Positions 40,119 through 64,000 of a stretch of 64,000 nucleotides of DNA are shown piece by piece. A program made the translations under genes and the position numbers. Each line of letters begins with the position of its first letter. The stretch's first letter is position 1. The stretch covers positions 98,830 to 162,829 of the forward strand of contig CAMDHH010000001.1 of the NCBI GenBank assembly GCA_945898065.1, given 5' to 3'. The notes beneath the pieces were generated by a model. That model saw only the letters and a list, made by a program, of their open reading frames with translations. It was not told where the DNA came from and did not search any database. This DNA is from Bifidobacterium breve. GTDB taxonomy: Bacteria > Actinomycetota > Actinomycetes > Nanopelagicales > Nanopelagicaceae.

Positions 40119-41014
40119 CCTTGATGCTCTTAGATAGCGCTTCCCTTTGGTATCGCGCTTATTACGGAATGCCAGACACGCTTACCGCTCCTGATGGAAT
40201 GCCCGTCCATGCAATACGTGGCTATCTAGATATGACATCTCGTTTGATTGGAATGTATAAACCAGATCGAATAGTTGCTTGCATCGAAGGTGATTGGCGT
40301 CCTTCATGGCGCGTGGATCTATTTCCAGATTACAAAGCGAATCGCCTCGATGTTGAGGGGGAGGAGGAAGAGCCTGAAACACTCACTGCGCAAATTCCAA
40401 TCCTTTTAGATTTACTAGATCTTTTCGGTATTCCGTTAGTCGGTGTAGATGATTATGAAGCAGATGATGTGATGGCGACTTTTGCAGTGCGCGAAAAGGG
40501 ACCCATACGTATTGTTACTGGTGATCGTGATCTTTTTCAACTAGTTGATGACAAGCAAGATATAAAAGTTGTCTATCTTGCAAAGGGAGTTTCACAACAC
40601 GATTTAGTTGACCATGCATGGGTCACGAACAAATATCTCATTCCTGGCGATAGATACGCTCTCTTTGCAATTTTTCGTGGAGATCCCTCCGATGGTTTAC
40701 CAGGGGTTAAAGGTATTGGCGAAAAAGGCGCGGCAATAATTGCGAATAATGCAGCAGATGTTGATGAAGCAATTGCGAAAGCAAAGGGAGCTGATTCACC
40801 TTTCGCTCCAGCTCTGAGCAAAAAAATTCTAGAAGGTCTCGATTATTTGAAAATTGCGCCAACACTGGTTCACTGTGCACGAGACGTTTCTATTCCTTCA
40901 ATGGAAATTGCTATGCCTAGTAAGCCCAAAGATCTCTCTGAGATTTATAAGTTTCAAGAGAAATACGGACTGGGTGCATCGGTTGATAAAATGATTGCTG
41001 CACTGGGCTGGTAA
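40115..41014 (+). CDS. 5'-3' exonuclease (Pol I N-terminal-like)
   Basis: LLDSASLWYRAYYGMP, DDYEADDVMATFA, VTGDRDLFQLVDD, DGLPGVKGIGEKGA. Confidence 0.92.
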   Translation: MTLMLLDSASLWYRAYYGMPDTLTAPDGMPVHAIRGYLDMTSRLIGMYKPDRIVACIEGDWRPSWRVDLFPDYKANRLDVEGEEEEPETLTAQIPILLDLLDLFGIPLVGVDDYEADDVMATFAVREKGPIRIVTGDRDLFQLVDDKQDIKVVYLAKGVSQHDLVDHAWVTNKYLIPGDRYALFAIFRGDPSDGLPGVKGIGEKGAAIIANNAADVDEAIAKAKGADSPFAPALSKKILEGLDYLKIAPTLVHCARDVSIPSMEIAMPSKPKDLSEIYKFQEKYGLGASVDKMIAALGW

Positions 41015-42408
41015 TGCTTCTCGTCTCAATCTTCACTGGATGGCTCTTATCCGCGAGTTTTCCACCCATTGGGCGATGGTACTTAGCGCCTCTTGCCATC
41101 TCTCTATGGATCTGGATTCTTCAAAAAGGTAAACGATCGATTATCAATACATTTGTCGTGGCATTTACATTCAATGCATTTCTTCTGCATTGGAGCTCCA
41201 CCTATGTGGGCAATATCCCATGGCTCATTCTTTGCTTGGGGGAGTCACTTCTTTTCTTGCCACTTGCATGGGCGCGGAAAAAGCGAATAGTTTACTTTCC
41301 AGCGATATTTCTTTTGTTAGAACAAATCAGATCGATTTTTCCATTTGAAGGATTTGCATGGGGGCGTTTAGCATTTGGCCAAGCGGATGCACCATATCGA
41401 GAAGTGGTTGCGATGGGGGGAGTCTCACTACTTACATCTGTCGTCACCTGTATTGGAATCACGCTCTTTTTTGTCAAACGTCAATTCAAAATCGCTGCGA
41501 TCTATGGCTCTGTGGTGGTTCTTCTCATTCTTTCAGTAGCTGCATTGCCATCAATACAATCGATTGGAAATTTCAAATCGTTGCTTGTGCAGGGCAACGT
41601 TCCCCAACTTGGTTTAGATTTCAATTCCAGAGCTAAGGCTGTTTTCAACATGCATGTCAAAGAGACGCTACGAGCGGTTGAAGAGAAAGAGGATTACAAC
41701 GTCATCATTTGGCCCGAGAATAGTGTCGATGTGGATCCATTTAGGAATGCAGATGTTCGCTCATCACTATCGGCTATCAATGAAGAGACTGGTAAACCAA
41801 TCATCATTGGAGCTGTTTTAGGTGCAGATAAAAGGATTGAAAATACCTCACTACTGTGGGGCAAAGGTGCGGTATCGACATATATCAAGCAACATTTGAC
41901 ACCTTTTGGTGAATACATTCCACTTCGTAGCATTGCCAGGTATTTCTCACCATTTGTCGACGATGTGCAAGATTTCTCTCCTGGCACAAGCGATATTGTA
42001 CATAATGTTGATAACGCGCTCCTGGGGCCAATCATTTGCTATGAACTCATCGATGATTCGTACATTAATCGCATAAGTCGGCAATCGAATTTACTCGTTG
42101 TTCAAACGAATAATGCAACATTTGGAACAAGTGCCCAAAGTGCGCAGCAATTGTCGATTTCTCGAATCCGAGCGATTGAAAACCATCGAGATCTCGTTAG
42201 TGTTTCAACAACAGGAATTTCAGCAGTTATCGATTCACAAGGAAATATTGTTCAATCAACAACCAGTAATCAACCGGATCATTTGTTTGCAGACTCAACA
42301 CTCTATTCCGATCAAACATTGGCAAATAAATTGGGGAATTGGGCTTTCTGGCTAACCTTGGTAGGCCTTGGAATCGTCGGATTTATAGCCCGGCGTATAT
42401 ACGACTGA
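41014..42408 (+). CDS. lnt: Apolipoprotein N-acyltransferase
   Basis: FEGFAWGRLAFGQADAPY, VIIWPENSVD, YIKQHLTPFGEYIPLR, GPIICYELI (E, K, C catalytic positions present). Confidence 0.92.
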   Translation: MLLVSIFTGWLLSASFPPIGRWYLAPLAISLWIWILQKGKRSIINTFVVAFTFNAFLLHWSSTYVGNIPWLILCLGESLLFLPLAWARKKRIVYFPAIFLLLEQIRSIFPFEGFAWGRLAFGQADAPYREVVAMGGVSLLTSVVTCIGITLFFVKRQFKIAAIYGSVVVLLILSVAALPSIQSIGNFKSLLVQGNVPQLGLDFNSRAKAVFNMHVKETLRAVEEKEDYNVIIWPENSVDVDPFRNADVRSSLSAINEETGKPIIIGAVLGADKRIENTSLLWGKGAVSTYIKQHLTPFGEYIPLRSIARYFSPFVDDVQDFSPGTSDIVHNVDNALLGPIICYELIDDSYINRISRQSNLLVVQTNNATFGTSAQSAQQLSISRIRAIENHRDLVSVSTTGISAVIDSQGNIVQSTTSNQPDHLFADSTLYSDQTLANKLGNWAFWLTLVGLGIVGFIARRIYD

Positions 42409-42418
42409 GCCTGAATCT

Positions 42419-42446
42419 AACGCCGATAAGTTGCATTATGTAAAGT
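42419..42446 (+). other. dif: Candidate chromosome dimer resolution site (dif), XerCD target
   Basis: AACGCCGATAA-GTTGCA-TTATGTAAAGT: 11+6+11 layout with ATAA..TTAT dyad; right arm near-identical to XerD-type arms; lies in the convergent lnt/gcvP gap. Confidence 0.75.
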
Positions 42447-42459
42447 AAATAAGAATCAC

Positions 42460-45315
42460 CTAGGAGCTATACGCCTCTATCGGCGCACAGGAGCAGACCA
42501 AGTTGCGATCCCCAAAGGCGCCATCGATGCGTCCAACGGTTGGCCAGTACTTACCTCTAGTGCCTATCAATTCACCAGGAATAAGGCCTGTAATCGTGGC
42601 TGGAAAGGCTCCTACTTCACGTGAATAGGTGTGCTCCCAATTAGTCGCTGCAATAGCTCCAATGGTGTGTGGCGCATTTCGAAGTGGTGAAGCATCGATA
42701 TCTTGCTTGCCATCGATGATCTCTTGGATTTCGAAGCGAATACCGATCATGGCATCAACAAAGCGATTCATCTCAAGAACATCTTCGGATTCAGTTGGCT
42801 CGATCATTAAAGTTCCAGCAACTGGGAAAGACATCGTTGGTGCATGGAAACCAAAATCCATTAAGCGCTTTGCAATATCATCGACGCTTACTCCAGAAAT
42901 CTTCGTAATCTCACGTAGATCCAAAATGCATTCGTGTGCAATCAAACCCTTGTTTCCTGTGTAGAGAATCGGGTATGAGGACTTGAGGCGCGCAGCCATG
43001 TAGTTCGCATTCAAAATTGCGACCTCTGTTGCATGCGTTAGCCCTTCTCCCCCCATGAGGCGAATATATGCCCACGAAATTGGCAAAATACTTGCAGAAC
43101 CAAATGGTGCAGATGAAATTGGTCCGGGACCTGTTGCAGGGCCTGCACTTGCATCTAATGGATGGTTAGGTAGAAAAGGTGCCAAATGTGCCTTGGAGAT
43201 TACTGGACCAACACCCGGTCCCCCACCACCATGAGGAATGCAGAAAGTTTTATGAAGATTGAGATGAGAAACATCAGCGCCAAATTTTCCAGGTTGCGCC
43301 GTTCCAACGAGTGCGTTGAGGTTTGCGCCATCTACATAGACTTGTCCGCCTGCATCATGAATCATTGCGCAGATTTCTGAGATTGCAGATTCAAAAACAC
43401 CATGCGTCGATGGATATGTGACCATCAGCGCTGCAAGTGAATCAGCATTGAGTGCAATCTTTAACTTTAGATCTTCCAAACTAACATTTCCTTCGTCATC
43501 ACAATCTATTACTACAACAGACATTCCAGCCATCACCGCACTGGCTGCATTTGTGCCATGTGCACTCGATGGAATCAGACAAATATTTCGTCCAGTATCG
43601 CCACGTGAATCATGATAATTGCGAATTGCTAATAGGCCGGCGAATTCTCCTTGGCTTCCAGCATTTGGTTGCAATGAAACAGCGTCATAGCCGGTGATCT
43701 CCACCAACCATTTAGAAAGTTGTTCGATGAGTAAACGTGAACCCTTTGACTGATCTGCTGGCGCGAAGGGATGAAGTGAGGAGAACTCTGGCCACGTTAC
43801 TGATTCCATCTCCGTTGCCGCATTTAATTTCATGGTGCACGAGCCCAAAGGAATCATTGTGCGATCAAGGGCGAGATCGCGATCTGCCAAAGTGCGCAGA
43901 TAGCGCATCATTGAAGTCTCGGATTTATATGTATTGAAAACTGGGTGCGTGAGATACGTTGAAGTACGCGCGAAGGCAGGTGCAATCGAATTTTCTTTCG
44001 TGTCAGATAGTCCAAGAATTGCTAGTACTTCATTGAAAGATGAATCAGTTGTAGTCTCATCGAAAGAGATTCGTATCTGTGTATTTGAGATTCGGCCAAA
44101 GTTATACTTTTTGGCAATCGCTCTCGTGTGTATCGCTTGCGCATCGACGACATCAATCGTTACCGTATCGAAGATATTTACATTACGAGATTTTGCTGCG
44201 CTTTGAAGACGTGATGCATATCCATGTATTCGCTCTGCTATCTCACGCAGACCATCAGGTCCATGCCACATTGCGTAAAAGGCGCTCATATTTGCAAGTA
44301 AAACTTGAGCGGTACAGATATTGCTCGTTGCCTTATCGCGCCTAATATGTTGTTCGCGAGTTTGCAGAGCTAAACGAAAAGCGGGATTGCCATGCGCGTC
44401 GATACTTTGACCGACCAATCGACCAGGCAGAGATCTCTCCAATCCAGCACGTACAGCCATAAAGCCGGCATGTGGCCCACCAAATCCCATTGGCACTCCA
44501 AAGCGTTGAGCAGAGCCAACTGCGATATCGGCGCCCCACTCCCCTGGTGCTTTGATCAAAGTCAGCGCTAACAGATCAGTTGCAGCAATGACAAGTGCGC
44601 CTTTGGAGTGTGCATACTCCGTTACTTTTGCGTAGTCACAAATTTCTCCAGTCGTATCTGGATATTGCACCAAGAGACCAAAGAACTCTTGATCAAATCC
44701 ATCACGTGCAAGATCGCCAGCATCAACTTCAATTACTCGTATCCCTAATGGCTTTGCACGAGTTTGAACAACAGCTTTGGTTTGTGGGTGTAGATGTTCT
44801 TCAATAAGAAATACTGCATCTTCACTGGTTTTTGAGGTGCGTCGCGCAACTGTCATTGCTTCAGCTGCAGCAGTACCTTCATCAAGCATGGAAGCGTTGG
44901 AAAGAGAGAGCGCTGTCATTTCACAGATTACTGTTTGAAAAGCAAATATTGCTTCTAAGCGACCCTGCGAAATCTCTGGTTGATACGGTGTGTACGCGGT
45001 ATACCAAGCGGGATTTTCCAAAACATTTCGCTTAATGACAGCGGGCGTAATAGTTCCGTAGTAACCCCCGCCAATGAGGGAAGTAAAAACTTGATTGTGT
45101 GAAGCAATCTCACGAAGTTCTGCAATAACCTCAACTTCACTCTTTGCAGAATCTAAGGTTTGGGAAAGTTTCTTAGCAATCGCGATATTTGCAGGTACAA
45201 CATCACTAATGAAAGTTTCGATATCGCGGTATCCAAGCAGCGCCAACATCTCTTGCTCGTCCGAGCTAGATGGCCCGATATGGCGCTTTGCAAAGCGCTC
45301 ACCGTTATACGTCAT
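42460..45315 (-). CDS. gcvP: Glycine dehydrogenase (decarboxylating), P-protein
   Basis: 951 aa; [60 protein letters not shown]. Confidence 0.97.
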
Positions 45316-55980: not shown

Positions 55981-56895
55981 CTACTTCGCACGAGGATGCG
56001 CGGAACTATAACTTTCGCGAATCTTATCTATCGTTACCAAGGTATATATCTGCGTTGTTGTAACGGAGGCGTGTCCTAATAACTCTTGTACAACGCGAAT
56101 ATCTGCGCCTCCATCTAAAAGATGCGTTGCATATGAATGGCGAAAGACGTGGGGCGAAACTTTTTCTTGCAAACCCACTGATGTCGCTGCATCCAAAACG
56201 ATTTGCCAGGCACTTTGACGCGATAATCGAGTCCCGCGAGTATTGAGAAATAGAGCACTATCAGCCTTCTTTTGTTTGGCTATGAGGGTCGGACGAACTC
56301 GTACTTGATAGTCGAGGAGTGCTTTTGTAGCGAAGGAGCCAAGTGGAACAATTCTTTCTTTGCCACCCTTACCGCGTAATTTCACGGTAGCAATCTCTCC
56401 ACCATCATTAGATGTTGAGGAAATATCTAACACATTGATTCCAATCAACTCACTTACACGAGCACCAGTTCCGTATAGAAGTTCTAAAAGAGCACGATCT
56501 CGTAGCGATGTTGAAATACCTGGTCGATCCGCTGCTTCAATCATCGAAATTATTTGATCAATACTCAGCGCTTTGGGCAATTTCCTCGGGATCTTCATCG
56601 TCTCTAAATTCAGTGTTGGATTAGGAAGACCAAACTCACTCACTACATATTTGTAGAAGTTACGAAGCGTTGATTCAACTCTATTGGTACTCGATGGTGC
56701 CAAATCTTTACGCATCTCGATATGAAATGCCTCGACAAAAGTGGAATCAATATCATCGAATTTCACTCCTCGACTTTGTGTATAGGAGGTGAAAAGTTCT
56801 AAATCTCTTTGATAGGAAACTAGTGTATTTGTCGATAATCCTCGCTCAATTCGCAAATGATCTAGAAACGATTTACTAGCTAATTCCAGATTCAT
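55981..56895 (-). CDS. xerD: Tyrosine recombinase XerD
   Basis: LELLYGTGARVSELIGI, KGGKERIVPLG, HVFRHSYATHLLDGGADIRVVQELLGHASVTTTQIYT. Confidence 0.94.
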   Translation of the reverse strand: MNLELASKSFLDHLRIERGLSTNTLVSYQRDLELFTSYTQSRGVKFDDIDSTFVEAFHIEMRKDLAPSSTNRVESTLRNFYKYVVSEFGLPNPTLNLETMKIPRKLPKALSIDQIISMIEAADRPGISTSLRDRALLELLYGTGARVSELIGINVLDISSTSNDGGEIATVKLRGKGGKERIVPLGSFATKALLDYQVRVRPTLIAKQKKADSALFLNTRGTRLSRQSAWQIVLDAATSVGLQEKVSPHVFRHSYATHLLDGGADIRVVQELLGHASVTTTQIYTLVTIDKIRESYSSAHPRAK

Positions 56896-63910: not shown

Positions 63911-64000
63911 AAGTCCGGCGACGTTCTACTCTCCCACAAGGTCACCCTTGCAGTACCATCGACGCTGAGAGGCTTAACTTCCGGGTTCGGAATGGGACCG
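63911..64000 (-). rRNA. rrf: 5S rRNA, 5'-truncated by the window edge
   Basis: Reverse complement CGGTCCCATTCCGAACCCGGAAGTTAAGCCTCTCAGCG...GGGAGAGTAGAACGTCGCCGGAC is canonical 5S. Confidence 0.95.

Follow-up and report, generated by a model that had tools for sequence, protein, structure and literature searches.

A predicted chromosomal dif site in a streamlined freshwater actinobacterium and its overlap with gene ends in relatives

At a dif site, which lies opposite the replication origin, the recombinases XerC and XerD resolve chromosome copies that are still joined when the cell is about to divide; the sites of B. subtilis and E. coli have been confirmed experimentally. For the Actinobacteria a predicted dif has been described in F. 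alni, CACGCCGATAATGCACATTATGTCAAGT (Kono et al. 2011, PMC3025954), and the same study supplied the E. coli and B. subtilis sequences used as references here. The window analysed (the whole stretch of DNA, 64,000 nucleotides) comes from the Planktophila/Nanopelagicaceae (acI) group; its dif core also occurs in named records such as Candidatus Planktophila lacus and IMCC26103.

Positions 42419–42446 of the window read AACGCCGATAAGTTGCATTATGTAAAGT, that is AACGCCGATAA-GTTGCA-TTATGTAAAGT (Table 1). A first-pass annotation had proposed an 11-6-11 layout with an ATAA/TTAT inner dyad at this point, lying by itself between convergent lnt and gcvP genes, and both sequence and coordinates proved exact. 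The lnt gene ends at 42408 and the gcvP stop codon occupies positions from 42460, leaving a 51-bp gap that holds the site, and the identities of the two genes were confirmed with NCBIfam models. The organism is a streamlined freshwater actinobacterium of the Planktophila group, and the 28-bp sequence is almost certainly the single dif of its chromosome. As such it is a standard bacterial feature, real and typical; the novel detail is that it overlaps genes in related genomes. A short dyad in a convergent gap could also represent a transcription terminator common to lnt and gcvP, but the inner dyad spans only 4 bp and is AT-rich, the conserved bases extend over the whole of both arms, and in many relatives the site falls within coding sequence or the upstream stop codon. 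No terminator-like match was found in the lnt–gcvP gap, and we consider this origin of the dyad extremely improbable. Across the full arms only 5 of 11 dyad positions are in common, as expected if two different recombinases bind the arms of a dif.

Table 1. Coordinates of the predicted dif site, its parts and associated genes in the window.
Feature	Position	Strand	Comment
dif site, 28 bp (11-bp XerC-side arm, 6-bp centre, 11-bp XerD-side arm)	42419..42446	+	Single copy, conserved in genus and class, at GC-skew switch
dif left arm AACGCCGATAA, presumed XerC site	42419..42429	+	10/11 vs F. alni dif; arm assignment inferred from E. coli/B. subtilis
dif central region GTTGCA	42430..42435	+	GTTACA in most congeners
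dif right arm TTATGTAAAGT, presumed XerD site	42436..42446	+	10/11 vs B. subtilis and F. alni, 9/11 vs E. coli
lnt, apolipoprotein N-acyltransferase, left neighbour of dif	41014..42408	+	TIGR00546 223.6 bits vs cut-off 132.9
gcvP, glycine dehydrogenase, right neighbour of dif, convergent with lnt	42460..45315	-	TIGR00461 1329.5 vs cut-off 859.2
xerD, tyrosine recombinase	55981..56895	-	TIGR02225 317.5 bits vs TIGR02224 284.7; PRK00283 above cut-off

Taken together, the two arms are identical to those of the F. alni dif at 20 of 22 positions (10/11 in each), and the right arm differs from that of B. subtilis at a single position, as had been annotated. When the F. alni arms were searched against the 64-kb window at up to 3 mismatches, the only match was 42419–42446, with 2 mismatches, against a chance expectation of 0.01 per window estimated from shuffles.

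At up to 3 mismatches the 28-mer occurs once in the organism's own 1.39-Mb genome (assembly 84.8% complete), in line with the single copy anticipated for a dif, and almost all relatives likewise carry one each. Its predicted conservation between diverged flanks was also found. One copy with up to 3 mismatches is present in 29 of 36 congeners, and 2 of the other 7 carry a slightly diverged dif; the congeners missed at this threshold are assemblies 56–82% complete, and in five of them no dif site was found. Weak 3-mismatch matches in incomplete congeners were set aside as chance-like, except for the exact-arm sites of G008 and G030. In an alignment of 32 loci (31 from the genus and 1 from another family) neither GCCGATAA nor CATTATGT shows any variation, whereas the flanking columns mostly carry 0–0.7 bits, near random, and conservation ends at the edges of dif save for a TAA directly after it. 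The arm pattern was recovered from 163 of 247 genomes of the class, against about 6 for a reversed control, and is retained in distant families. In this class-wide search none of the 25 genomes sampled from one genus had it; their chromosomes measure 5.8–11 Mb, and they could be Streptomyces with linear chromosomes.

Actinobacterial dif arms are found outside chromosomes as well. In a collection of viral contigs (L093 onward) they occurred in at least 117 stretches compared with 27 for the reversed pattern, hinting that phages may carry dif-like sites. This would fit a reading of the 28 bp as a place where a Xer-using integrative element attaches or has left a scar, but the site is single copy, nothing is integrated between lnt and gcvP, the genus-specific form of dif was not found on any contig of the viral collection, and such elements would target the host's own dif anyway; we attach hardly any probability to it. 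Five dif-like sites were seen in the genome G271 (L277 at about 3715 and 3951, L278, L279 and L280). Two of them are separated by 236 bp and adjoin an ORF of 382 aa that resembles a tyrosine recombinase, and these sites possibly reflect an element exploiting Xer sites.

The GC skew of the window switches sign at dif, as the first-pass annotation had expected. The cumulative maximum lies at 41872, 0.5 kb from the site, and the block-bootstrap interval for the change point is 41.8–45.7 kb. Whole-chromosome skew was followed in 20 sampled stretches of one complete congener, G013 (1,328,793 bp, dnaA at base 162), in which the local cumulative maximum is 81 bp from dif and the skew is mostly positive before the site and negative after it. 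The expected placement opposite the origin was seen in all 17 single-contig relatives, with dif at 47.3–52.6% of the circle from dnaA. Neither dnaA nor xerC, the latter present in congeners, was found in the window's own assembly (84.8% complete), so the links of dif to these genes are drawn from relatives. Of the claim that the 28 bp are the replication terminus, the part that stands is that dif marks the terminus region and the skew switch. No octamer among KOPS-like motifs rose above the general strand skew, and KOPS are therefore not counted as evidence for dif.

An rRNA gene also lies close to the terminus in this family. Operons of rRNA are usually nearer the origin. In each of the 14 complete genomes of the family that were tested, the sole 16S rRNA gene lies at the terminus, 23.2–28.9 kb away from dif (at G013:C1:684475-685989 in G013), and a 5S rRNA occupies positions 63913–64000 of the window, on the minus strand at the contig end. 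Such tight linkage of 16S rRNA and dif was not seen in 14 other complete genomes of the class. No paper on dif or rRNA placement in the Planktophila/Nanopelagicaceae (acI) lineage was found among those searched; the word dif is absent from the acI complete-genome paper, which describes a single rRNA operon.

The relationship of dif to its neighbours was compared at 54 loci of the family, where either lnt or the gene of a polyprenyl-phosphate-type glycosyltransferase stands upstream. At 25 of these loci, including L211, L213 and L238, the 28-mer forms the last nine codons (NADKLHYVK) of the glycosyltransferase, written AAC GCC GAT AAG TTA CAT TAT GTA AAG and usually followed by TAA. At 25 further loci dif bases supply the stop codon of the upstream gene: at 19 of them lnt or the glycosyltransferase gene ends with the TAA inside the left arm, and at six the upstream stop codon runs into dif and includes its first two bases. 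The upstream gene ends clear of dif at only 4 of the 54 loci, the window among them, and at eight loci the final dif base is also part of the gcvP stop codon. This overlap with gene ends is read directly from the sequences. Since 93.92% of predicted dif sites are non-coding (Kono et al., PMC3025954), the Nanopelagicaceae clade is unusual in this respect. Genome streamlining has probably fused dif with the gene ends of its neighbours, such that the same 28 bp act as recombination site and as last codons or stop. The overlap may have functional consequences, for example if transcription through dif influences recombination by Xer.

The 25 coding loci could be taken to mean that the 28 bp are conserved as the present or former C-terminal end of the glycosyltransferase, the window copy being the remnant of a lost gene tail. 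Conservation is, however, equal at the 29 loci where the 28-mer lies outside that frame, the arms are kept in distant families, and in the congener G001 a stop codon interrupts the frame in the dif centre. At conserved amino acids, moreover, there are 1.3 synonymous codons per position inside the coding dif compared with 3.2 just upstream. Codon choice in dif is therefore nearly frozen, indicating constraint on the DNA, which the protein tail follows. These frozen synonymous positions rule out the glycosyltransferase tail as the main cause of conservation, an explanation to which we give almost no weight; as a description of the overlap seen in relatives it still holds. Selection at dif acts on DNA, and as the upstream gene varies by species while dif is fixed, the recombination site probably dictates the protein tail. 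Where a genome of the genus has no glycosyltransferase at dif, a relative of it is mostly present at another place, in two cases next to xerC.

The two flanks of dif differ in their similarity to the window. In other species or another genus, the gcvP gene beside dif is 93% similar at L219 (G183) and 84% similar in both G062 and G244 (L232), while lnt on the other side is 42–43% similar, a contrast which suggests that DNA may have been replaced on one side of dif.

A xerD gene had been noted 13.5 kb from dif, and it was located there (Table 1); a spacing of about 13.5 kb recurs in G013, G014 and G036. Its product scores higher with the XerD model than with the XerC model, slightly under the XerD model's own cut-off of 329.6, and passes that of the broader XerC/D family; the XerS model gives 87.5 bits against a cut-off of 267. 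The best PDB match is E. coli XerD, and the catalytic residues of the two line up. G013 has a second recombinase, which is XerC-like (314.9 vs 279.2 bits), and FtsK gamma (PF09397) is present in the window's own genome (G000) and in relatives. The original reading of the site as the XerCD target is supported by the match of the arms, by its single copy, by conservation at the DNA level, by its location at the skew switch and, in relatives, opposite dnaA, and by the recombinases and FtsK gamma of the group. By analogy with established Xer biology, when two chromosomes are left joined as a dimer by recombination, FtsK at the septum would translocate the DNA and so bring the two dif copies together. 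XerC would bind the left arm and XerD the right, and once FtsK gamma had activated XerD, strands would be exchanged at the edges of the 6-bp centre to give two monomers.

The site provides a firm dif and terminus landmark for a highly abundant, hard-to-grow lineage of freshwater bacteria, one that helps to order fragmented genomes and supports estimates of replication rate from read coverage. Its overlap with gene ends illustrates the extent of compaction in streamlined genomes, even at a site needed for recombination.

Compared with known systems, the site resembles the predicted dif of F. alni and other Actinobacteria (PMC3025954) in its 11-6-11 layout, its arms (10/11 and 10/11) and its single copy near the GC-skew shift. 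It differs in that only 2 of 6 central positions are shared with F. alni, and in that its host belongs to a streamlined lineage of 1.2–1.8 Mb in whose relatives dif overlaps gene ends. With the B. subtilis and E. coli sites it shares the XerD-side arm (10/11 and 9/11, respectively), a two-recombinase system and an FtsK-type translocase, whereas the XerC-side arm matches at only 6/11 in each. The single-recombinase systems difSL/XerS and difH/XerH likewise have a terminus site on the 28-bp scale that is cut by a tyrosine recombinase; unlike these, the complete congeners of the window have both XerC-like and XerD-like proteins.
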